DNA of 64,000 bases from positions 248,001 through 312,000 of the forward strand of contig JAUIAP010000002.1 of NCBI GenBank assembly GCA_030425205.1. Direction: 5' to 3'. The notes beneath the pieces were generated by a model. The model saw only the letters and a list, made by a program, of their open reading frames with translations, did no database searches and was not told the DNA's origin. Made by a program: the position numbers and the translations under genes. Below, piece after piece: positions 719 through 12,202 of the stretch (within the stretch, counting starts at the first letter, position 1; every line of letters begins with the position of its first letter). This DNA is from Anaerolineae bacterium (GTDB lineage Bacteria > Chloroflexota > Anaerolineae > Promineifilales > Promineifilaceae).

Positions 719-2416
719 ATGATCAATTTTCCTAAAAGAATTATGTCACGTATTTCGAAATTAACTTTCGCGTTGCTAATGTTTATGTTGGTAATCGTTG
801 CGAAGCCCAGCAATGCGCAAGGCAACACCCTCATGGACATCATATCCAGTGACTTACGTCTGGATGAATTTAAGGCGGCCATTAACACGGCAGAGCTGGA
901 CAATATGTTGCGTGGACCCGGTCCATACACCATTTTTGCTCCAGTCGATGGTGCGTTCATCGCCTCAAGTAACAGTGGGGATATGCGCGGCACCGTCCTT
1001 TATCATGGACTAAAAGGTAAATACACCAATGGCGACCTAAAACAACAGACAACGGTTGCCACATTGCTTGGACCCGAACTGGAAATTGTCAACGATCGCG
1101 GTGTGACCATTAATGGTCAGGCGAAGATGGTTGCCATCGATATCCCAGCATCGAACGGGATTTTGCAGATTATTCATGTCCCGCTCTTGCCTCCAGAGGG
1201 TGTCGCCATTCCAACGGCTGAATCGCTTGCAGAGGCAGAGGCAGAGGAAGCAGCTGCGGCGGCTGAGTCAGGGGGCAGCGCGACGACATCAGGTTTGCCA
1301 TCATTGGCGGCGGCCGATCCCGGTCCATCAACCTTCACCGACCCAAATCGTAACCCTGCCTATGTGAGTGGCGGTTTGATGCCCTATTGGATGGGTGTTG
1401 CGACCGATGCGACCGTCTGCAAGGGGATGTCATGGGTAATGGTCGAAGGCTGGGCTGGCTACTCCAAAGTTGGAGCTGATCGCAAAACCAATCCTTATCG
1501 CGGCGATACCTCCTGCGACCAATCGCTTCCAATGCTCTGTTTCAATCGAGATATGAGCGGCGCACCGGCCTTGAGTTTCCGAGAAAGCTGGTCATTCGGT
1601 TCGCTACGTCCAACCTTGCCAGTTCAAGGTTACCAACTCACTTCACAGGCGACCGCCGATGCCTTATGTGCGGCTGCCTATGGTGAAGGGTGGCGTATGG
1701 CTGAGTACCATGACGCAGCTTTTGGTCAAAAGATTGGGCCTGTAAGTGGGCACGACTTTTGGGCGCGCGGTAACGCACCGCTCGGCCAACGCTTTTGGGT
1801 AAGTATTTACGACCAACCTGCCAATCCATGGAATAGCGTGTTGCAACCGAATGGCGCGGGTGGATTTGGTGCAGCCTCAGGGAATAATGGTGGCGGATTT
1901 GTCGACAATCCCGGTGACGACCCCGCATTTATTGGTGATGGCCCCGCTCGAATGTCGCGCAGTCAAGGTTTGGCGGCTGGCAAGATGGCCTGCTCTGGAA
2001 TGACTTGGGTCATCTATCGTCAGATGGATGGGCTTGTCCAAGTTGGTACGGATGCGCGCACGAACCCATTTGTTGGTGACCAATCCTGTGCCGCAACCTT
2101 CCCACTGCTGTGCATTCGCGTTGACGGATATGCTGTTCCGTCTAGCCGCAATGGACAAAACTTCGCCACAGGCTGGTCGGCTGGCTCAGTGCGGTTGACA
2201 CGCCCTGTCAATGGTAATGAGATTTCAACCCGCAATGCGGCTGCCGATTTGTGTGTCAGTTCCTTTGGGAATGGCTGGCGGATGGCCGAGTTTCACGATG
2301 GTTCGCTCGGCTCGCATGGCGGGGGATGGGCATTATGGGCATACGGGAATCTGCCCACAGGACAACGGTTCTGGGTTGCCAACAACGATCAAATGGCGAA
2401 TCCTTGGAACCGCTAA
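719..2416 (+). CDS. Secreted fasciclin (FAS1) protein with two C-terminal Cys-rich repeats
   Basis: 565 residues. A signal peptide (about residues 1-34, ending SNAQG) is followed by one FAS1/fasciclin adhesion domain (about 38-158) with the typical GPYTIFAPVDGAF segment and a late ILQIIHVPLLPP segment. An Ala/Glu-rich linker leads into two tandem copies of a roughly 150-residue module (about 225-375 and 415-565). Each copy begins with C-x-G-M-[ST]-W-V, carries G-D-x-S-C, P-x-L-C and a D-x-LC Cys, then GxGWRMAE[YF]HD, and ends QRFWV...DQPANPWN. I do not recognise this module. The four conserved Cys suggest two disulfides, and the protein is probably extracellular and adhesive. ATG 719 is kept, but ATG 743 would give an equally good signal peptide. 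Neither has a strong ribosome-binding site. Confidence 0.9.
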   Translation: MINFPKRIMSRISKLTFALLMFMLVIVAKPSNAQGNTLMDIISSDLRLDEFKAAINTAELDNMLRGPGPYTIFAPVDGAFIASSNSGDMRGTVLYHGLKGKYTNGDLKQQTTVATLLGPELEIVNDRGVTINGQAKMVAIDIPASNGILQIIHVPLLPPEGVAIPTAESLAEAEAEEAAAAAESGGSATTSGLPSLAAADPGPSTFTDPNRNPAYVSGGLMPYWMGVATDATVCKGMSWVMVEGWAGYSKVGADRKTNPYRGDTSCDQSLPMLCFNRDMSGAPALSFRESWSFGSLRPTLPVQGYQLTSQATADALCAAAYGEGWRMAEYHDAAFGQKIGPVSGHDFWARGNAPLGQRFWVSIYDQPANPWNSVLQPNGAGGFGAASGNNGGGFVDNPGDDPAFIGDGPARMSRSQGLAAGKMACSGMTWVIYRQMDGLVQVGTDARTNPFVGDQSCAATFPLLCIRVDGYAVPSSRNGQNFATGWSAGSVRLTRPVNGNEISTRNAAADLCVSSFGNGWRMAEFHDGSLGSHGGGWALWAYGNLPTGQRFWVANNDQMANPWNR

Positions 2417-2447
2417 AGATCAACCGATTCGTTTGAAACACATTCAG

Positions 2448-2474
2448 AAGCACATCAATTCGATGTGCTTTTTT
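2448..2474 (+). terminator. Rho-independent terminator of the FAS1 gene
   Basis: Nine-base stem AAGCACATC / GATGTGCTT with a five-base loop, running straight into a T tract, 31 bases after the FAS1 stop codon. Confidence 0.85.
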
Positions 2475-2481
2475 GTTGCGT

Positions 2482-2507
2482 GTTTCGGGATTCCCAAATC
2501 CCGAAAC
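2482..2507. repeat. Perfect 11-bp inverted repeat
   Basis: GTTTCGGGATT and its exact complement separated by CCCA, just after the terminator. There is no T tract on either side. It may back up termination between the convergent genes. Confidence 0.5.
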
Positions 2508-2646
2508 GTCCAGCTAAGAAGAATAGATTCCCGCGCGGGTACGAGAGAATTATCTGGTCACCATTGGAGAATATACCCCCCATCCTACATATGGGTTCAT
2601 CCTCTCTTTCCCTATCGTGACGAAAAGTGATGTATTATGCGCCCCG

Positions 2647-2679
2647 AAATACGGCGTTTCTGCCAGAAACCCCGTATTT
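2647..2679. terminator. Hairpin between convergent genes, likely for the minus-strand Kelch gene
   Basis: AAATACGG and CCGTATTT form the outer stem and GTTTCT / AGAAAC the inner stem, separated by a C-C mismatch and closed by a GCC loop. It lies 56 bases beyond the stop codon of the minus-strand gene at 2735. No clear T tract follows, so the terminator role is inferred from position. Confidence 0.45.
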
Positions 2680-2734
2680 GAAGATTGCAATTCCTAACAC
2701 TTGCTTTCAGGATTGGTATTTGTACAGGAAATCA

Positions 2735-4138
2735 CTACGGCTCGTTGCGCGTCGAAGGCAGAAAAATTTGGAACGGGCGTGGTTCAAAAGCGTAAACTTC
2801 AGCTTGAAACGCGCCATCGCGTTCCCCCCCAACGAGATAGATGCGAGTTTCGATGTTGGCGAGGCCGAGCCGTGTCCAGCTTGAGTTGATCGGGACATTG
2901 ACAACTGACCAGTTGTCAGTGGATGCGTCAAACAGTTCCCCAGAGGTGATTTCTGACTCGAAACCGCCTCCTAACACATAGAGCTTATCGAAAATAGTTA
3001 ATGCTTGCGCGCCCGCGCGCGCCTGCAACAGCGGAGGACAGCTCTCCCAAACCTCGCTCATTAAGTTAAAGCGTTCACAACTGTCAAGTTCGGCCGATTC
3101 TGAGCGGCCCCCGACGAAATAGAGCGAATCCCCCAATATCGCGCCCGCCGCATACGAGCGCGACGTTGCAGGCGGTGGCAACGGTCGCCAACTGTCGTCA
3201 ATCGGGTTATAGACCTGAAAGCCATTTGTGACTCCGCGTAAGTTCTCACCCCCGACAACGTATAAAACCTTGCCATCTGAGACGGCAACCGCTCCTATCA
3301 ATGGCACAGGCAACGATGCGGCCGATCGCCAAACATCACCCGCAGGGCTGTAAACTTCAACGTTTGCCGTCGCGCCGTTCGCTGCGCGTCCACCGACAAC
3401 ATAAATTTGTCCGGCAACGATGGCCGCTGCGGCATCCGTGACAGGTGTGGGCTTATCGGCCAAGGTGTACCATGTTTGGTCACGGCTATCAAAAGTGGCG
3501 GTGCTGCCGTCAATGCCATCGGCCGAATCGCACTGTGCTGGATCACATTCCCCGCCGATCCGATAGATGTTTAACCCATCGCCCACCGTCGCCATCCCCG
3601 CACGCGGCACATCCAGCGGGTGCGCCAACCACCAGCCGCGCTCCTCAAGGGCGATTTCGGTAAAAGGCTCGATTTCTGGCTGCGTCAACTGCTGATAGGC
3701 AAAAACACCGCCTACAATGAGGATGAGCAGCAGAGGAAAGAGGAGAAAGATCGGCCGAAAATGACGTTTAGTTGGTGCTATAACAGTTGGAGATTGTGTG
3801 TTTACGGGTTCAATTGTGGGGGTGGAATCGGCCGAAAGTTCAAATTGTTCAACAGTCCCCTCGACCGCCTCCGCCACTTGTTCAGGCTCAGGTGTTTCTG
3901 GAACCGTCTCCTCTTCAACGAGCTCAACCCCATCGATCAACCCTTGTTGTAATCCCAACGTGACCGCCTCTGTGCGAGAGGTCGCTCCCATCTTTGTGAA
4001 AATGTTCCGCACATGGACTTTGACCGTATTGGGACTGATCGACAGTGCGCTGGCGATCTCTTTGTTTGAGCCGCCCGCCACCATCTCATGCAATACGTCC
4101 GTCTCACGCGGACTCAATGATTCGCCGAATTCTGCCAT
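2735..4138 (-). CDS. Membrane-tethered LuxR-type regulator with extracellular Kelch propeller
   Basis: 467 residues. Residues 6-68 are a complete GerE/LuxR helix-turn-helix (LSPRETDVL, GGSNKEIASALSIS, NTVKVHVRNIF, KMGATSRTEAV). An acidic, Pro/Thr-rich linker follows, then one transmembrane helix (about 129-148). The rest (about 165-460) is a Kelch-type beta-propeller, with repeated YVVGG / YFVGG / YLVGG blades. There is no signal peptide, so the N-terminus should be cytoplasmic and the propeller outside, as in the ToxR/CadC layout but with a LuxR DNA-binding domain. No receiver domain is present. It follows the TPR-like gene at 4213 by 74 bases on the same strand and probably shares its transcript. 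The propeller may sense a surface ligand, which is inference. Confidence 0.88.
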   Translation of the reverse strand: MAEFGESLSPRETDVLHEMVAGGSNKEIASALSISPNTVKVHVRNIFTKMGATSRTEAVTLGLQQGLIDGVELVEEETVPETPEPEQVAEAVEGTVEQFELSADSTPTIEPVNTQSPTVIAPTKRHFRPIFLLFPLLLILIVGGVFAYQQLTQPEIEPFTEIALEERGWWLAHPLDVPRAGMATVGDGLNIYRIGGECDPAQCDSADGIDGSTATFDSRDQTWYTLADKPTPVTDAAAAIVAGQIYVVGGRAANGATANVEVYSPAGDVWRSAASLPVPLIGAVAVSDGKVLYVVGGENLRGVTNGFQVYNPIDDSWRPLPPPATSRSYAAGAILGDSLYFVGGRSESAELDSCERFNLMSEVWESCPPLLQARAGAQALTIFDKLYVLGGGFESEITSGELFDASTDNWSVVNVPINSSWTRLGLANIETRIYLVGGERDGAFQAEVYAFEPRPFQIFLPSTRNEP

Positions 4139-4212
4139 GGGGAAATTATACCGATCTCAGTGGGTAGTTTGCAGTAAACAGCAGTCAATAACTGTTCACC
4201 GCTGACTGTCCG

Positions 4213-5295
4213 TTAACCGTCTGCCCCACCCTGCGGCGTGGGCGTCCAGGGCCCTTGTCCCGGTTGTGGGGTGGGCGTCCAGGGCCCTTCTTGCACGGCA
4301 TCACTCGTTGGGGTTGCCGTTGGGGAGGGGTTTTCGCAGTCCCATTTAGCCGTGTTCCATTTTTCACGCAGGTCACTGCTATTGAAGGTTCTCAACGCTT
4401 GGGCATATTGAAATTGTGCGCTGCATGGCTCATTGGCTGCCGCTAGCTGATCGCCATAGCCAATTCGTGCCTCTACCAGCAGGTCGCACGCATCATGGAA
4501 GCCGGGCAGCGTCGTGCAAATTTCATTCAATGCGTTGACGCTGACCTCCCAATTGATGCCAAAATAGGAGACACCCGTTAAGTAGGTGCGTGAATAGTAG
4601 AGCTGACTGATAGCGTTTTCGGGCAGTGTGCCAAGTTTTTCTGCTTGCTCAAAGTAATTGATGCCCAGCGTTACGCGATTGCCGTTTGTGAAGAAAAAGC
4701 CCGCGCCCAGATATGCTTCAAACAGCAGCGAGTTGGTGCGGAAGCGTTCATAGTTTGGATAGTCGATTTGAAAGGCGACAAGCTCTCGAATCGCATCTTC
4801 CCATTGTTCATTTGTAACCATCGTTTCTAGCGTGTTGAGACGGGTTTCGAGCGCGGCTGGCTGAGGGGTGCGATTGGGTTGGGTGGCGACAGGTGGCAGT
4901 AGTGTGGGTGTGTCGGATGGCGTCGGCGTGATGGGGGTTGCCGTTGTTGTCGTGCCGTCGCCCGCGACGATGACGAGCGGGGTTGGCAATGGAGATGCAG
5001 ACATTGCGCCAATCGTCGCTGCGAGGCTAAGCACGTCAGGGTCATCGGGCGACCAGCCTTGCAGCTCTTCTAAGCGACGTTCCGCTAGCGCGATGTTGCC
5101 CGCATCGATGTCCTCATGGGCAAGTTCAAGCTGACGACTAATCTCGGTCACCAAATTGGCCTGCGCCTGTTCGGTGCGCGTTGCCTGACCACTGCGCCAT
5201 GCAAGCGCAGCGATAATTGCGTAGAAGATAATAAGTAATGCGGCAGCTAGTAGGGCATACCCACTGTAGCGCAGCCACGTGCGCGATTTGGTCAA
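4213..5295 (-). CDS. Membrane-anchored TPR-like protein with GPWTPTP tail
   Basis: 360 residues. A short basic start leads into a single transmembrane helix (about 10-33), then a helical segment that includes a TPR-like pair (about 40-85). A Thr/Pro-rich stretch (about 105-150) follows, then a helical domain (about 150-310) that looks like degenerate TPRs. The C-terminus is low-complexity and carries GPWTPTP twice. Without a cleavable signal, the bulk should lie outside the membrane. It sits between a GT4 gene (66 bases upstream by ATG start) and the LuxR-Kelch gene on the minus strand, suggesting a three-gene unit. No catalytic motif is visible. It may be a scaffold in envelope assembly or a partner of the LuxR-Kelch protein, which is inference. 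Confidence 0.8.
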   Translation of the reverse strand: MTKSRTWLRYSGYALLAAALLIIFYAIIAALAWRSGQATRTEQAQANLVTEISRQLELAHEDIDAGNIALAERRLEELQGWSPDDPDVLSLAATIGAMSASPLPTPLVIVAGDGTTTTATPITPTPSDTPTLLPPVATQPNRTPQPAALETRLNTLETMVTNEQWEDAIRELVAFQIDYPNYERFRTNSLLFEAYLGAGFFFTNGNRVTLGINYFEQAEKLGTLPENAISQLYYSRTYLTGVSYFGINWEVSVNALNEICTTLPGFHDACDLLVEARIGYGDQLAAANEPCSAQFQYAQALRTFNSSDLREKWNTAKWDCENPSPTATPTSDAVQEGPWTPTPQPGQGPWTPTPQGGADG

Positions 5296-5361
5296 CGATA
5301 GTTCTCCACAGGGTTTAAGTAGTCATACGCTGATGGTCGTTATCTGCATTGACAGTATAGC

Positions 5362-6459
5362 TTAAGTATCATTTAGGCTGCGATAGACAGCGACAGTTTT
5401 TGATGCGATTTGATCTTGTGTGTACTGTTGTAGAACGCGCTGGCGACCTTTTCGGCCGAAATCCTCGCGTAATTCCACATTCTCTTGCAACAAGCGCAAA
5501 TGGGCGTGCAACCCTGCCACATCATCCTCCCGAAAAATTAGCCCTGCATCCCCAATCACGTGTGGAATCTCGCCGCTATCTGATCCAATAACGGCCACTT
5601 CACACGCCATCGCCTCAGTTAGAACGCGACCGAACTGCTCTTTCCAAGTCGGCAAGGTACGCGATGATAACACTAGCACATCGAGCGAGCGCAAAAATTC
5701 AGGCACATCTTCTGAACCAATTTTGCCTAAAAAGTGGACGCGCTCTGCAATTCCAAGCTGCCGTGCCAACTGTTCCAACTCATCGCGCGCCCCGCCATCA
5801 CCCGCGATTTTGATGCACCAATCGCCCGTTAGCTGTGCAGCCGCTTGTAAGATGAGATCGACCCCCTTTTCCGGGTTGAGTCGTCGATTGGCCGACCCAA
5901 TTGTAAATGGGCGTGATGGACACCGCTCTTTTGGCGTAAATAGACCCATGCTCACCCCAAACTGCGGGAAGGTGGCTGAATCACCACGATATCCTTTACT
6001 GCGCCACACCTGTTCGGCTGCTGCATTGCCCATAATGCCAAAATGTGACCAGTTGAGAATTTGCCGCTCGATCCAGCGGAAGGGCGGAGGATAGCGGCGC
6101 AAGATATTTTGCCATGAGAAAAAGACCAACTTGGCGTTTAGCTTACGTCCGACGCGCATCCCGTGCCACGTCACGAAGCTATATGGCTCCTCATCCATGT
6201 GTAGCACGTCAGGCTTTATTTCATGCAGCAGTTTGGGGAGATCGGGATAGTAATGCAGATGGTATTGACCATTAAAGCGCATCGGCAACACGCGCAAGTC
6301 ATAACCGTCCGTGTGGCTGCGTTCGAGCGTTAGGTTCCCGCGCGCCTCCTTCCAATAAGGTGGCACAACGACAGTCAAATCGGCCGATCGGCCGATTGCT
6401 TCTAACTTTGTTTGGTACGCCCCCACGACGCACGCCTTTGAGACGATGACTACCTTCAA
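5362..6459 (-). CDS. Glycosyltransferase family 4 (GT-B fold)
   Basis: A retaining GT4-type glycosyltransferase. The N-terminal half starts VVIVSKACVVGAYQ and holds the acceptor side. The C-terminal half has the nucleotide-sugar signature: GSANRRLNPEKGVD, KIAGDGGARDELE, VHFLGK, then the E-x7-E type region FGRVLTEAMACEVAVIGSDSGEIPHVIGDAG. I place the start at TTG 6457-6459. It is preceded by AAAGGGCGA, the protein then begins like its relatives, and it leaves room for a promoter before the divergent gene. An in-frame ATG at 6516 would add 19 residues that look unlike the family. Sugar and acceptor are unknown. The neighbouring GT-C genes suggest surface glycan or glycoprotein synthesis. Confidence 0.88.
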   Translation of the reverse strand: MKVVIVSKACVVGAYQTKLEAIGRSADLTVVVPPYWKEARGNLTLERSHTDGYDLRVLPMRFNGQYHLHYYPDLPKLLHEIKPDVLHMDEEPYSFVTWHGMRVGRKLNAKLVFFSWQNILRRYPPPFRWIERQILNWSHFGIMGNAAAEQVWRSKGYRGDSATFPQFGVSMGLFTPKERCPSRPFTIGSANRRLNPEKGVDLILQAAAQLTGDWCIKIAGDGGARDELEQLARQLGIAERVHFLGKIGSEDVPEFLRSLDVLVLSSRTLPTWKEQFGRVLTEAMACEVAVIGSDSGEIPHVIGDAGLIFREDDVAGLHAHLRLLQENVELREDFGRKGRQRVLQQYTQDQIASKTVAVYRSLNDT

Positions 6460-6542
6460 AATTCGCCCTTTACACTGTGGCGCGTTTAACGCGATATGTG
6501 TCTTTTCTGGTTTCATCCCACTCGTTGTTATACTCGTCCGTT

Positions 6543-8564
6543 GTGAGTAGGAAAAATGACCGTGTAACTGCCTCGATCAACCGCCTATTTTACCAAGAAT
6601 GGGTATGGGTCTGTTTGATTCTCATGTTGGCGGCTGCCCTACGATTTGCCTTCCTAAGCGACTACCCACCCGGTCTCTACCGAGATGAAGCATATAATGG
6701 ATTAGACGCACTCGCCGTGCTAGATGGTGAGCGCACGCTCTTTTTTGAGGGCAACAATGGACGTGAACCGCTGCATATCTATGCGATGGCGTTGAGTGTC
6801 GCGATTTTCGGCCGAACGCCACTTGCCCTGCGGCTCCCATCAGCCTTGATCGGCACGCTCACGGTCATCCCGTTTTATCTTCTTACACGAAGCTGGTTCG
6901 GCCGACGCACCGCGCTTTTTGCGGCATTCATTTGGGCGACAACGCTCTGGCCTATCCACCTCAGCCGTCTCGGATTCCGCACCATCTTCCTTCCGTTCTT
7001 TCTGGCAATTGCCTTCTACGCCATCACCCTAACGCTAAAGCGCGCATTCCCGAATCGCTGCACTGATTCTGAGAACCACCATGACTCCAAATCTTTCTCA
7101 CGCATCAATGGAGATAGCAGGCTAGGCATTGCGAGCTTCCTCGCGGGCATTCTCTACGCAATCACCTTCTACACATATTTAGCCGCGCGCCTTACCCCTC
7201 TCTTTCTCATCATTTTTTCACTCTATCTTTATTGGCGTTTTTCGCCGTCGCGCGGCGAAATTCTAGAAGTTTTCAAGCGCATTATTGTGCCATTTGGCAT
7301 CGCCTTTTCGTTGACAATTGCGCCCCTGCTGATCACGCTATCTGTGCAGAATGACGGGCTTTTCGGCCGAACAGATCAGGTCTCAATTTTCAGCCAATCG
7401 ATCAACGAAGGGGACTTTTGGGGAACATTTTGGCGGCATATTTGGCATACCATAGGGATGTTTGTGTGGCGTGGTGACATTATCGTGCGCCACAACCCTG
7501 CGGGGAGACCTGTCTTCGACGTGCTGATGGCTGGTCCATTCCTGATTGGCGTGGTCTGGGCGTTGCGTCATTTCCGGCGTCCTGCGGCAGCGGCGACGTT
7601 GCTCTATTGCGCCACGATGGCATGGGGAACGATCTTGGCGGAGGATGCCCCCCACTTTTTACGAGCAGCGGGGATGCTTCCTATTCTTCTCATTTTTCCC
7701 GCGATCGGGTTGTGTTGGCTATCATCGTGGAATAAACTTCATTCTGGTTTACGGGTTGCCCTACCAACTGTCCTTTTGGTTGGCAGCACGATAATCACTG
7801 TGAGAGATTATCAACGATACATGCGACAGCCAGACACAGCGTATCTGTTTGAGGCGGCTGCGCGGGAGTTAGGGTTGCGGATTTCGGCCGAAACCGCCCA
7901 GAACGTTAGCATCGATGATCGGTACTTTGTCGGATGGACAGCCATCCCATTCTTAGTTGATTCCGATTTGCAACTATACCAAGGTGCGCCCGCGACCGCT
8001 TACGATTTACCACATACCATTTTTGCATGGCCTTATGAATCACTTGATTTTGTCGCTGACCAACTATATCCAAATAGTTCGGTAACGGTGATGGTGGGCA
8101 GTCTCGCACGCGGTGATTTAGAATTGACCGCCTACCCTTTTTACGTTCAGTACGCGATGACGGAGAAACAGGAGTCAGCAGTAACGACCCTCGCAAACTT
8201 TGACAATCAACTTTGGCTTGAAGATGTGACGATTGAAACAGCAGACGAAACGCTTGCCATCACGTTGACTTGGCGCGGCGAACAACTGCTACAACAACCG
8301 CTGACCGCATTTGTTCACGTCGCCGATATTGAAACGGGTGCAATTGTACAAAGTGACATGCCGCCTGCGGGACAATTTTGGTCGCCGCTGTGGTGGCGTG
8401 AGAATTTATCGCTGATTGAACAGCGTGACATCGCAGTGCGCTATGATCCCGAACGCCACACAATTTTTGTGGGCGTTTACAACAGTGTAACGTTAGACAA
8501 TCTCCCCATAGTCGATTCAAATGGGGCGCAGATTGGTGAAAGATGGGAATATCAGGATAAGTAG
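6543..8564 (+). CDS. GT39-type polytopic glycosyltransferase with extracytoplasmic C-terminal domain
   Basis: About 673 residues from GTG 6543; the open frame extends up to 6477, but that would overlap the divergent GT4 gene. Some ten hydrophobic segments fill the first 430 residues. The first outer loop reads YPPGLYRDEAYNGLDAL, with the acidic D-E pair typical of polyprenyl-phosphate-dependent GT-C enzymes (dolichyl-P-mannose:protein mannosyltransferase and ArnT relatives). REPLHIYAM and TLWPIHLSRLGFR are also family-like. The last 230 residues are non-membrane and end in a beta-rich module (LAITLTWRG, FVHVADIETG, ERHTIFVGVYN) shared with other GT-C proteins here. It likely transfers a lipid-linked sugar to a surface acceptor. 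The acceptor is unknown, but the Thr/Pro-rich proteins encoded next are plausible. Confidence 0.88.
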   Translation: MSRKNDRVTASINRLFYQEWVWVCLILMLAAALRFAFLSDYPPGLYRDEAYNGLDALAVLDGERTLFFEGNNGREPLHIYAMALSVAIFGRTPLALRLPSALIGTLTVIPFYLLTRSWFGRRTALFAAFIWATTLWPIHLSRLGFRTIFLPFFLAIAFYAITLTLKRAFPNRCTDSENHHDSKSFSRINGDSRLGIASFLAGILYAITFYTYLAARLTPLFLIIFSLYLYWRFSPSRGEILEVFKRIIVPFGIAFSLTIAPLLITLSVQNDGLFGRTDQVSIFSQSINEGDFWGTFWRHIWHTIGMFVWRGDIIVRHNPAGRPVFDVLMAGPFLIGVVWALRHFRRPAAAATLLYCATMAWGTILAEDAPHFLRAAGMLPILLIFPAIGLCWLSSWNKLHSGLRVALPTVLLVGSTIITVRDYQRYMRQPDTAYLFEAAARELGLRISAETAQNVSIDDRYFVGWTAIPFLVDSDLQLYQGAPATAYDLPHTIFAWPYESLDFVADQLYPNSSVTVMVGSLARGDLELTAYPFYVQYAMTEKQESAVTTLANFDNQLWLEDVTIETADETLAITLTWRGEQLLQQPLTAFVHVADIETGAIVQSDMPPAGQFWSPLWWRENLSLIEQRDIAVRYDPERHTIFVGVYNSVTLDNLPIVDSNGAQIGERWEYQDK

Positions 8565-8604: not shown

Positions 8605-10500
8605 ATGATTAGAATAAAAAAATTGTGGACAATGTTAGGTGTTGCAATGCTGGCGGCAGTCATCGTTATGCTGAATGCAACCCCATCGGCCGCACAAGAC
8701 AACAGCCCTAACTTGCTCCCCAATCCGGGATTTGAAGGTGGCTATTACAATCAAGACGGTATTGCAGAATTGGCCGTGCCGCTTGGCTATCGGATGCACT
8801 TCATTGATGGTCAGGAGATCAATGGCTCCGAAGGCCCAGCCTATCGTCCCGAAACAGTCGTTTGGAATATCACCCAAGCTCCCCCAGAAGAACAAACCCT
8901 ATTCTGGCGTGATGGTATCTACAACATCAAAATTTTTAAGGGTGGGCACGCGCTATATACAGCGTTGAGTACCGATGTTCAACTCGAACCGGGTGCGCGT
9001 TATCGTTTTGTTGCACCTGTTTTCCCAGATATCGTTGCAGGCTATGAAGGTGGTCGCAAGCAGTCACCGGGAACGGCCGAGTCTGCTGGCGTACGCTTGG
9101 GCGTTTCTGCTCAAGGTGCGACATGGCGCGATGCAAGCCAAATCAACTACACAGGTTGGTTTAATGCGGGGAATACGCCTAACTTCTTCTTCAACATGCT
9201 CGACTATTCGTTCGAGTTTACCGCGCCAACTGCAAACGTGACGCTATGGATTGAACTGTTCGGGCAAAAACAAATCTCCAACAATGGCTACTTTATTGAT
9301 GGCCTTTCGTTGCGAAAAATTGCAGACGCTGCGCCGCCAACAAGTACGCCGCGTCCAACCAATACGCCGGGACCAACCAATACACCACTGCCCGTTGGCC
9401 CATGGTTTACACCCGTTCCAACCCGCATTCCAGCAACACCAGTGCCGACAGGCCCCTGGTTTACACCCGTTCCACCGACAGAAACACCAACGGCTGAGCC
9501 GCTAGAAGAGGTCGTTGAGCCTGTTGACGGTGGCAGTACGACCGATGATTCAGCAGCTGATGATGCCGCATCCGAAGTTGCTGCTGTGCCCGTTGCGCCA
9601 GTGGCCAACCCGGCGGCCTTCCAACCACTGCCGACATCAACCCCTGATGCAAATGGTGTCATTTACGCCGAGATAGGCCCCACTGACTCCGTTTGGAGCA
9701 TTGCGGCGAAGAACGGTCTAACGCTTGACGAGATTTTGGAACTGAACAATATGCCGAAAGACGAAGTGATCTTTGTCAATCAAGGCGACTTGTTGGTGGT
9801 TGGCTTCGCCAATGCACCGGCTGAGGTTGTGGAAGAAGAGGCAGAATCGGCCGATTCTACCGACCTGAGTACCGAGTCAGATGACGCTGATGCCGTTGTC
9901 GAAGGTGGCAGCACAGAAGCAGCGAGTGAAGATACGTCAGAAGAAGCGGTTTCGACCGAACCTGTCGAGGTGACACCTGAACCAACCGCCGCACCCGTAA
10001 TGGGCGAAATTTGCCTCAAGGCTTACGAAGACGAAAACCAGAACGCTGCCTATGATTTGGGCGAGCCACTACGCGCCGATGTCGCCTTCACCATTTTGAA
10101 GGACGACCAAGTTCAGAGCAGCTATATCAGCCGCGTGGACACCGACATTTTCTGCGTCGAAGGGCTAGAGTCGGGAGCATACCGGATTACGCGTTCAAAG
10201 TTGCCCAATGAAACGCTGTCAACAGCCGGCGATGTCAATATCATGCTGTCTGATGGTGGATCTGTGACGGCCGAATTCGGTAGCTACACAGAAGAAGTCG
10301 TCGCCGATGCGGGTGCATCTGCTGTTGAGGCAGAAGAGGCAGTCGCAGAGGTTGAAGCTGCGCCACTTTCGGCCGATGTTGCCCAAGCTGATAACACACC
10401 AAACCCAACGACTGGCATACTAATTGCCGTCGCGGTCGCCGCAGTCCTGTTATTGCTTGCCATCTTGGTTATCATTCTTAGCCGACGCGGAACACAGTAA
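8605..10500 (+). CDS. Secreted LysM protein with Thr/Pro linker and C-terminal membrane anchor
   Basis: 631 residues. A good ribosome-binding site (GAGAGGA, 8594-8600) precedes ATG 8605. A signal peptide ends at SAAQD (about residue 31). Residues 35-240 form a beta-sandwich, carbohydrate-binding-like region (NLLPNPGFEGG ... FIDGLSL). A linker with PTNTP and GPWFTPVPT units follows. Residues 353-398 are a LysM peptidoglycan/chitin-binding domain (SVWSIAAKNGLTLDEILELNN). After an acidic Ser/Thr/Glu region, about 466-560 resemble an SdrD B-type Ca-binding domain (ENQNAAYDLGEPL). A final transmembrane helix ends in SRRGTQ. The next gene is a paralogue without LysM. It probably anchors to the cell wall or links wall and membrane. 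Confidence 0.88.
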   Translation: MIRIKKLWTMLGVAMLAAVIVMLNATPSAAQDNSPNLLPNPGFEGGYYNQDGIAELAVPLGYRMHFIDGQEINGSEGPAYRPETVVWNITQAPPEEQTLFWRDGIYNIKIFKGGHALYTALSTDVQLEPGARYRFVAPVFPDIVAGYEGGRKQSPGTAESAGVRLGVSAQGATWRDASQINYTGWFNAGNTPNFFFNMLDYSFEFTAPTANVTLWIELFGQKQISNNGYFIDGLSLRKIADAAPPTSTPRPTNTPGPTNTPLPVGPWFTPVPTRIPATPVPTGPWFTPVPPTETPTAEPLEEVVEPVDGGSTTDDSAADDAASEVAAVPVAPVANPAAFQPLPTSTPDANGVIYAEIGPTDSVWSIAAKNGLTLDEILELNNMPKDEVIFVNQGDLLVVGFANAPAEVVEEEAESADSTDLSTESDDADAVVEGGSTEAASEDTSEEAVSTEPVEVTPEPTAAPVMGEICLKAYEDENQNAAYDLGEPLRADVAFTILKDDQVQSSYISRVDTDIFCVEGLESGAYRITRSKLPNETLSTAGDVNIMLSDGGSVTAEFGSYTEEVVADAGASAVEAEEAVAEVEAAPLSADVAQADNTPNPTTGILIAVAVAAVLLLLAILVIILSRRGTQ

Positions 10501-10507
10501 ACTGTAC

Positions 10508-10546
10508 AAGAGCCAGATTCCTCGTGGGAATCTGGCTCTTTTCCCC
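10508..10546 (+). terminator. Strong terminator after the LysM gene
   Basis: AAGAGCCAGATTCC pairs perfectly with GGAATCTGGCTCTT across a short loop, and a pyrimidine tract follows. It lies between the LysM gene and its paralogue, so the second gene probably has its own promoter or depends on read-through. Confidence 0.85.
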
Positions 10547-10576
10547 TTTAAGAGAAGATTCTGGAGAAGAATAGAA

Positions 10577-12202
10577 ATGAAGTTTTTGACTAAACAGATA
10601 AAATGGCTCGCGTGTCTGACCACGCTTTTGCTGTTTCTAGGGGGAGGCCAGACTGCATTTGCCCAATCCCCATCCATCGCAAACCCAAGTTTTGAAGAAC
10701 CCTATAGCAATGGACTTGCACAAAATTGGGCACCATGGCATGAAGAACGCAACGTTAATGTCGATTGCAACACTGAATCGATGTTTCGTCGCCCGTCATG
10801 GGGGCCTGAAATTGCGGGTGGGAATGGCGGACAACTTCTCTTAGATGGAAGTCGCTCTCAACACGTTGGTAATCAATTTGCCACTTGGCACGGTGGTGTC
10901 TTCCAGAATGTCACCGGTACGACGGCTGGCACACAATATCGCTTTACCGCAAATGCGTGGGGTCGTGCGTCGCAGGACCAATATCCTGCGCCATCTGATC
11001 GGGTGGTCGACTTCACTGTTCGTGTCGGGATCGACCCAACTGGGGGCGGCAACTGGACGAGCGCAAACGTTGTATGGGGTCCGACTATCTCCCCGCATGA
11101 CGCATGGCAATCTGTCTCTGTTGAAACAGCCGCTCAAGGCAGTACGATTTCCGTATTTATTGCGGCTAATTTTGCCGGCCCCGGCCACTGTCGCGCCCAT
11201 TTAGACATTTGGTTTGACGTGGCATCGTTAGAAACCACAGGCGCCCAACCGACAGCCGTTCCCGTTGTAACAAATACGCCGGGATCAGGTGGCGGTCTGC
11301 CTGTTGTGACAAATACACCGGGATCAGGTGGTGGTGGAAGCGGTGGTCTCCCCGTTGCGACCAACACACCGGGATCAGGTGGTGGTGGAAGCGGTGGTCT
11401 CCCCGTTGCGACCAACACACCAAATCGCCCTCGCCCGACGCCGCGCCCAACCAATACGCCATTGCCAACGGGTCCATGGTTTACAGAAACACCGACGGCT
11501 GTTCCACCAACCGATACGCCTGTTCCACCGACGGAAGAGCCGCCGACAGCCGTTCCTGTGCAACCGACGACTGCGCCAATTGTCGCACAGCCGACCACTG
11601 CACCCGTTATCGTGCAGCCAACGGAAGCGCCAACTGATGTGCCACCGACGGAGATTCCACCCACCGATGTACCGACGAACACACCCGCTCCACAGGGTGG
11701 AACTATCTGTGTCAATACCTTCGCGGACGACAATGCCAACGGGCAACGGGACTCCACAGAGGGGTATATGGCCGGAATTCCTGTCTTCATTGGTCAGAAT
11801 GGGGTGGTGATCAATCAGGGCGCGACGACTGGCTCGGCAGCGGCTGTCTGTTTTGAACAGCTTGTTGCAGGTGAGTATGAAGTTGCGCAACGCTTGCCCG
11901 GCAGTTTAGAAATGACCACAGCGGGCAGCCTAACCATTCCAATCGAGGAAGGCCAGCAGATCGGGTTGGAGTTTGGCAGCCGTGTGCGTGAGATTACAAT
12001 CGAAACGCCCTCTGAAGAAGTGGCCGAATTGCCGACAGTCGTTGTGCAGGATGCTTCAGATGAGACAGGCGGTGAAAATGCACTGCCGACAACGTCCGCC
12101 CAACCAAACGGCCTAGATACCCTTTCAATTGCTGGAATAATCATTTTGGGTGTTGCCGTTGTACTGCTTGGGGGTATTTTGGTTGCCCTGTTGCGTCGCT
12201 AG
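10577..12202 (+). CDS. Secreted Thr/Pro-rich surface protein, paralogue of the LysM protein without LysM
   Basis: About 541 residues from ATG 10577, chosen because a cleavable signal peptide starts there (MKFLTKQIKWLACL... TAFAQ). Residues 30-220 are a jelly-roll, carbohydrate-binding-like region opening with IANPSFEEPYSNGL, comparable to NPGFEGGYYN in the previous protein. Next comes a Gly/Ser/Pro repeat region encoded by 51-bp DNA repeats, then a long PT linker with PTNTPLPTGPWFTETPT. An SdrD B-like domain (GGTICVNTFADDNANGQRD) follows, and a C-terminal transmembrane helix ends LLRR. The same order as its upstream neighbour, minus LysM, points to tandem duplication with domain loss or gain. 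Likely a cell-surface or glycoprotein component. There is no TCGGCCGA octamer in this gene. Confidence 0.85.
   Translation: MKFLTKQIKWLACLTTLLLFLGGGQTAFAQSPSIANPSFEEPYSNGLAQNWAPWHEERNVNVDCNTESMFRRPSWGPEIAGGNGGQLLLDGSRSQHVGNQFATWHGGVFQNVTGTTAGTQYRFTANAWGRASQDQYPAPSDRVVDFTVRVGIDPTGGGNWTSANVVWGPTISPHDAWQSVSVETAAQGSTISVFIAANFAGPGHCRAHLDIWFDVASLETTGAQPTAVPVVTNTPGSGGGLPVVTNTPGSGGGGSGGLPVATNTPGSGGGGSGGLPVATNTPNRPRPTPRPTNTPLPTGPWFTETPTAVPPTDTPVPPTEEPPTAVPVQPTTAPIVAQPTTAPVIVQPTEAPTDVPPTEIPPTDVPTNTPAPQGGTICVNTFADDNANGQRDSTEGYMAGIPVFIGQNGVVINQGATTGSAAAVCFEQLVAGEYEVAQRLPGSLEMTTAGSLTIPIEEGQQIGLEFGSRVREITIETPSEEVAELPTVVVQDASDETGGENALPTTSAQPNGLDTLSIAGIIILGVAVVLLGGILVALLRR
11320..11421 (+). repeat. Two perfect 51-bp tandem repeats inside the surface-protein gene
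   Basis: Units at 11320-11370 and 11371-11421 are identical at every base and encode a Gly/Ser-rich segment followed by LPVATNTP. A shorter, diverged unit lies just upstream (from about 11281). Perfect identity suggests recent expansion, so copy number may vary among strains. Confidence 0.9.

Follow-up and report, generated by a model that had tools for sequence, protein, structure and literature searches.

A predicted membrane-tethered regulator joining a LuxR-type helix-turn-helix to a Kelch propeller is conserved in Chloroflexota

The window, by which we mean the whole 64,000-nucleotide stretch of DNA analysed here, contains a gene whose product combines an intact N-terminal LuxR-type helix-turn-helix, a flexible linker, a membrane helix and a six-bladed Kelch propeller, an arrangement that is conserved as a unit. 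We consider it likely that this protein is an orphan single-pass transmembrane one-component transcription regulator, whose propeller senses outside the cell and controls the pairing of the heads. A one-component sensor with a LuxR head and an outside propeller had already been proposed in the first-pass annotation and, with the head placed inside the cell, stands as the best reading, topology and sensing both being predicted from sequence. The features on which this reading is based are collected in Table 1.

The open reading frame starts with ATG and runs for 467 codons without an internal stop; it could be extended by at most six codons 5' of codon 1, none of which is a start codon. Pfam recognised the GerE domain at residues 6-60 (E 3.1e-22; 78 bits, the family cut-off being 23.5 bits), confirming that the LuxR helix-turn-helix is complete at the N-terminus, and the regulator was the best of about 50 GerE matches in the 7.8-Mb genome. 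The sequences nearest to this helix-turn-helix are those of NarP and FixJ. With matches considered up to an E-value of 1, Pfam detected no receiver (Response_reg), kinase, PAS or autoinducer-binding domain, in agreement with the earlier claim that receiver and PAS domains are lacking. In the same searches the OmpR-type winged helix (Trans_reg_C) was absent, the only helix-turn-helix matches being GerE and other non-OmpR families. The sole hydrophobic segment, IFLLFPLLLILIVGGVFAY (residues 130-148), has a mean hydropathy of 2.69 and is directly preceded by K-R-H-F-R. Behind it, Kelch families match residues 188-449, the best being PF24681 (E 9e-51). No NCBIfam model scored above its cut-off for an architecture of helix-turn-helix, membrane helix and Kelch domain. 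Elsewhere in the genome (contig C60, L113 1223-1480), we observed an 85-aa protein consisting almost only of a LuxR helix-turn-helix.

An AlphaFold2 model of the regulator, built on 41 aligned homologues, had a mean pLDDT of 89.4. It shows a head of four helices (residues 10-20, 25-32, 36-50 and 55-64; pLDDT of 94-98 for the block, residues 1-60), a disordered linker at about residues 75-127 and a membrane helix at residues 130-151, in accordance with the hydropathy and with the order of transmembrane segment and Kelch domain described at first pass. Six blades, assigned by reading the strand list, follow the membrane helix, and strand 169-172 closes the last of them. The best solved folds found by Foldseek were the Keap1 and the designed SAKe6 propellers, with a TM-score of about 0.8-0.88 on the target. 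Pfam repeats, modelled blades and Foldseek matches all identify the domain as a Kelch propeller.

Table 1. Positions in the window of the regulator gene, its parts and the genes next to it
Feature	Position	Strand	Evidence
LuxR-TM-Kelch regulator gene, complete, 467 aa	2735..4138	-	ORF, Pfam, full-length homologues
LuxR/GerE helix-turn-helix, residues 6-60	3959..4123	-	Pfam, AlphaFold2 helices, conservation
Acidic Pro/Thr/Glu linker of low complexity (residues 70-124), disorder predicted	3767..3931	-	pLDDT about 50
Single transmembrane helix, residues 130-151, basic residues N-terminal of it	3686..3751	-	Hydropathy, model
Six-bladed Kelch propeller, residues about 167-452	2783..3640	-	Pfam, model strands, Foldseek
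Cys354 and Cys367, facing in outer hairpin of blade 4, predicted disulfide	3038..3079	-	Co-occurrence, model
C-terminal tail, motif [YF]xx[FY][IL]P, here FQIFLP	2738..2782	-	Alignment
TATAAT box 6 nt before ATG, predicted promoter of leaderless mRNA	4145..4150	-	Homologue and neighbour counts
Membrane helix and all-helical TPR-like domain, four invariant cysteines; possible partner	4213..5295	-	Synteny, alignment, AlphaFold2
GT4-type glycosyltransferase, next gene upstream of membrane-TPR gene	5362..6516	-	Pfam Glycos_transf_1, E 5e-34
PMT_2-type membrane glycosyltransferase, divergent	6477..8564	+	Pfam PMT_2, E 4e-10

The search for the same architecture in the phylum, suggested at first pass, recovered full-length members in the regulator's own class and in further classes. 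Since 45 of the 52 genomes of the same taxonomic family contain full-length homologues, for the most part with 40-46% identity, a chance origin of the layout is excluded. The regulator was found in all 17 good genomes of this family, almost always as one copy. In the same class, 203/396 genomes had a match at an E-value of 1e-30, many of these full-length, and a profile search found full-length members in further classes of the phylum, with 60/400 genomes giving a match at a severe limit of 1e-60. The 94 complete homologues that we collected represent some 30 families in more than one class of the phylum, and each of them has helix-turn-helix, membrane segment and propeller in this order and in the same frame. 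The gene tree requires 29 label changes between taxonomic groups, 28 being the least possible; it thus follows taxonomy, and inheritance has been mainly vertical. Plasmid records gave Kelch-domain matches only, none at 80% coverage, and a scan of the genome contigs with the single protein as query returned only two Kelch proteins, both unrelated. Judged by sequence comparison, this is no one-off fusion: the gene has been passed down in several classes of one phylum, normally as a single copy. Its layout, described at first pass as unusual, does stand out against ToxR and CadC, yet is no exception in the phylum itself, where it is widespread and vertically inherited.

Mean pairwise identity among the homologues is 63% for the helix-turn-helix (residues 6-62), 37% for the propeller and 18% for the linker and membrane helix. 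Furthermore, E12, G22, N25, T38, H42, K49 and R55 are invariant in all 94 sequences. The helix-turn-helix being the best conserved part, DNA binding appears to be the most constrained function. Linker length is very variable, the distance from helix-turn-helix to membrane helix ranging from 23 to 107 aa (median 56; 94 homologues). At the other end of the protein, Pro461 of the tail motif is kept in 93/94 homologues, and the shorter pattern [YF][LIV]P occurs within the last 20 residues of 67/79 homologues, compared with 3/62 other genes encoding an N-terminal membrane or signal segment. These low counts among the neighbours led us to reject the FLP tail as a general export tag, and the tail motif is, as far as the alignment indicates, particular to the regulator family.

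We infer that the helix-turn-helix is cytoplasmic and the propeller exported. The positive charge before the membrane helix and the co-occurring cysteine pairs support this orientation: lysines and arginines are more numerous on the N side of the helix in 71 of the 94 homologues and less numerous in six. Cys354 and Cys367, which lie on the modelled strands 354-358 and 363-367, are both present in 55 homologues and both absent in 32, while Cys354 alone was found in seven and Cys367 alone in none. Likewise, the pair 251/281 is complete in 15 homologues and missing altogether in 75, with one cysteine alone in 0 and 4. On the tree, the pair 251/281 changes about 8-9 times and the pair 354/367 6 and 2 times, with few supported events. 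One disulfide is thus predicted to stabilise the propeller in most members. In the first blade we also observed a seven-residue insertion, CDPAQCD (residues 198-204; positions 3527-3547), which brings two further cysteines and is all but absent from the other 93 homologues. Its CDPAQC pair, the other cysteine pairs and the charge bias fit a disulfide-bearing exported propeller.

Upstream sequence was long enough for 85 homologues, and in 24 of these a perfect TATAAT lies at -17 to -10 (6-12 nt before the start); further upstream the hexamer occurs seven times in about 227 positions. Within the same loci, the box precedes 16/59 regulator genes versus 2/424 neighbouring genes. A Shine-Dalgarno match is absent in 70/86 regulator genes. 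At such a distance, a -10 box would place the transcription start at or next to the ATG, giving a leaderless message, and its position supports the assigned start codon. No -35 consensus was found near the TATAAT boxes of the regulator genes, which explains why a generic sigma-70 scan of positions 2300-6800 found no promoter. No convincing palindrome emerged when the region before the regulator gene was searched for a common operator. Taken together, the TATAAT counts suggest that a conserved leaderless promoter belongs specifically to the regulator gene, and point to independent expression of this gene.

The gene directly upstream of the regulator, on the same strand and separated from it by 74 bp in the window, encodes a membrane-TPR protein whose AlphaFold2 model is all helix (pLDDT 83.8). 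Almost every locus of their own taxonomic family has the two genes adjoining on one strand with a gap of 0-180 bp; in the loci outside this family the membrane-TPR gene was not beside the regulator, and its homologues sit elsewhere in the genome. Homologues of the membrane-TPR protein occur in 150/199 genomes of the class, some of these belonging to a family (f29) that yielded no regulator; such a partner is therefore not obligatory. Four of five homologues examined by eye have an extra TolB-like propeller. Long forms with a C-terminal TolB/PD40-like propeller were seen at L158 2134-4008, L160 2035-3951, L162 2571-4421 and L159 2619-4307, and the protein in the window is a short form of this class-wide family, in which a Pro/Thr tail replaces the propeller.

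Further upstream, the place of the GT4 gene is kept within the taxonomic family and that of the PMT_2-type gene, whose true start is probably downstream of 6477, in several genomes of the family. In other families the genes flanking the regulator are unrelated ones with housekeeping roles (tilS-, folP-, ffh- and recombinase-like, as judged by eye from the sequences), and outside its own taxonomic family it has no constant neighbour. Two further observations concern the surroundings of the gene. The motif GPW(F)TPxPT, or a near form of it, recurs in Pro/Thr-rich stretches of the membrane-anchored or exported proteins encoded at 4213-5295, 8605-10500 and 10424-12202. The convergent neighbour at 719-2416 encodes a secreted protein in which a fasciclin domain precedes two copies of a Cys/Trp-rich unit.

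In the same genome (contig C60, near 24.8-27 kb), we also observed an ECF sigma gene that overlaps by four bases with an anti-sigma-like gene, the pair occupying L122 1323-2801 and 2798-3451. The anti-sigma-like protein has an N-terminal HLATCDDC motif, one membrane segment and an outer Kelch propeller. Pfam did not recognise its zinc-finger part, and the anti-sigma label accordingly rests on the motif and the gene order. The presence in one genome of a Kelch ectodomain with this second type of output supports a sensor role for Kelch.

How might such a protein work? The propeller would bind an envelope or extracellular ligand, either a glycan or a protein, and this binding would alter how two regulator molecules pair in the membrane. 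The two helix-turn-helix heads could then bind their sites as a dimer while staying at the membrane, the long and variable linker giving them the reach to DNA. The lack of constant neighbours outside the taxonomic family suggests that the targets lie elsewhere in the genome; our guess is that envelope glycosylation genes are among them. By analogy with ToxS and ToxR, we would also guess that the membrane-TPR protein takes part within its own taxonomic family.

Several other explanations have to be weighed against this mechanism. In the main rival, a site-1 and then an intramembrane protease would cut the protein on engagement of the propeller and free the LuxR head into the cytoplasm. Cleavage is compatible with the length and disorder of the linker and with the low conservation next to the membrane (juxtamembrane pairwise identity of 15%), and the anti-sigma-like protein with a Kelch propeller, mentioned above, belongs to a class usually controlled by regulated proteolysis. 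However, we found no conserved cleavage-like motif in the membrane helix or juxtamembrane region, the membrane segments have no constant helix breaker, and ToxR, CadC and the 12-TM LuxR regulators act from the membrane; we therefore regard proteolytic release as unlikely. Kelch domains in bacteria can also be enzymes or adhesins, and include sugar-binding and oxidase proteins. It might thus be argued, also from the weak NanM/mutarotase-like matches of the regulator's Kelch part, that the protein works through its propeller, which would be exported to act as a lectin, an enzyme or an adhesin, the helix-turn-helix being vestigial or only weakly autoregulatory. The head would hardly be expected to exceed the propeller in conservation and to keep seven residues invariant in that case, which makes this quite improbable. 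As for an artefact in which separate LuxR and Kelch genes were joined by frame fusion or misassembly, nothing was found in its favour, and we reject it as having a negligible chance of being true, given the same layout in 94 independent loci, the uninterrupted frame and a start supported by the TATAAT box. A failing transmembrane prediction and a helix-turn-helix misassigned from the frame of a separate gene were the two outcomes that the first-pass annotation had named as fatal to its reading; neither came about, as the membrane segment and the in-frame helix-turn-helix are present in 94/94 homologues.

A further competitor, less likely than not, is that in the regulator's own taxonomic family the membrane-TPR protein binds the Kelch domain and either does the sensing itself or is required as a chaperone. 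Such a role finds a precedent in ToxS and VtrC, which serve ToxR and VtrA (PMC9214523), and would fit the same-strand adjacency within the family as well as the make-up of the partner, with its one membrane helix, TPR-like domain and four invariant cysteines. On the other hand, the class-wide spread of the TPR homologues, their distant loci in other families, often with a TolB-like propeller of their own, and the separate promoter-like box of the regulator indicate that the partnership is at best family-specific. In the same way, adjacency limited to one taxonomic family sets the pair apart from co-component systems of the ToxRS/VtrAC kind.

We now compare the proposed regulator, which would sense through its own propeller and act from the membrane, with known systems. 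ToxR, CadC and VtrA bind DNA through an OmpR-type winged helix, unlike the GerE domain found here, and their periplasmic domains are unrelated to the Kelch propeller. What they have in common with our protein is the order of helix-turn-helix, one membrane helix and sensor, the latter exported in them and predicted to be so here, and sometimes an adjacent partner gene (PMC9214523). According to the main text of a survey, transmembrane transcription regulators are a recognised and widespread group in which the single-pass type is the commonest membrane type (PMC10269533). The regulators described there likewise have a DNA-binding domain and a membrane segment in one protein and no histidine kinase, the single-pass type included; this main text names neither LuxR/GerE nor Kelch, and the supplementary tables may list the architecture (PMC10269533). 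With a DNA-binding domain and at least one transmembrane segment in its chain, and with no kinase or receiver, our protein has the domain make-up of a transmembrane one-component regulator, and the charge bias and cysteine pairs support the orientation expected of one.

The membrane-bound LuxR-type regulators DadR, CadR and HcdR of Eggerthella are proven transcription activators (PMC9734109). In these 12-TM proteins, a type found in Coriobacteriia, a LuxR-type helix-turn-helix acts from the membrane, as we predict here, but it is C-terminal and preceded by 10-12 membrane helices, instead of N-terminal with one helix; no exported folded domain is described for them, and a genome has many of them, each next to the genes that it controls (PMC9734109). 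The NarL/FixJ response regulators have the nearest helix-turn-helix but carry a receiver domain, whereas our regulator has none and is membrane-bound. Quorum-sensing LuxR proteins, LuxR solos included, require an autoinducer-binding domain, and none is present in our regulator.

Single proteins that combine a propeller with a signalling output also include the Reg_prop and Y_Y_Y sensors of Bacteroidota; these have Reg_prop rather than Kelch propellers, and of five checked four end in histidine kinase parts and one has no recognised output. We considered the Dyadobacter Y_Y_Y propeller proteins as LuxR-headed analogues and rejected them, since none of those checked has a LuxR head. Keap1-type Kelch domains have the same six-bladed fold (TM-score of about 0.8 on the target), but Keap1 is a eukaryotic cytosolic adaptor with 23-29% identity to the regulator propeller, a likeness that implies no shared function. 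Within the literature collection searched, no paper joined Kelch, LuxR and Chloroflexus. Membrane-tethered regulation is therefore known in principle, while the LuxR-TM-Kelch family itself is apparently undescribed.

To our knowledge, little is known about how these bacteria sense their surroundings. We tentatively propose, as a possibility that we hold with less than even confidence, that the protein belongs to a class of orphan membrane regulators that spans the phylum and has so far not been described. Each genome would carry one copy, vertically inherited and expressed from its own leaderless promoter; the Kelch propeller would probe the surface of the cell, and the LuxR head, which hardly varies, would control a single regulon that is conserved in several classes. 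A DNA-reading head that is on average 63% identical between distant families, in a single-copy gene, leads us to expect an old shared target set. The Kelch propeller, best known from eukaryotes, would then serve in bacteria as an outside sensor on at least two kinds of output.
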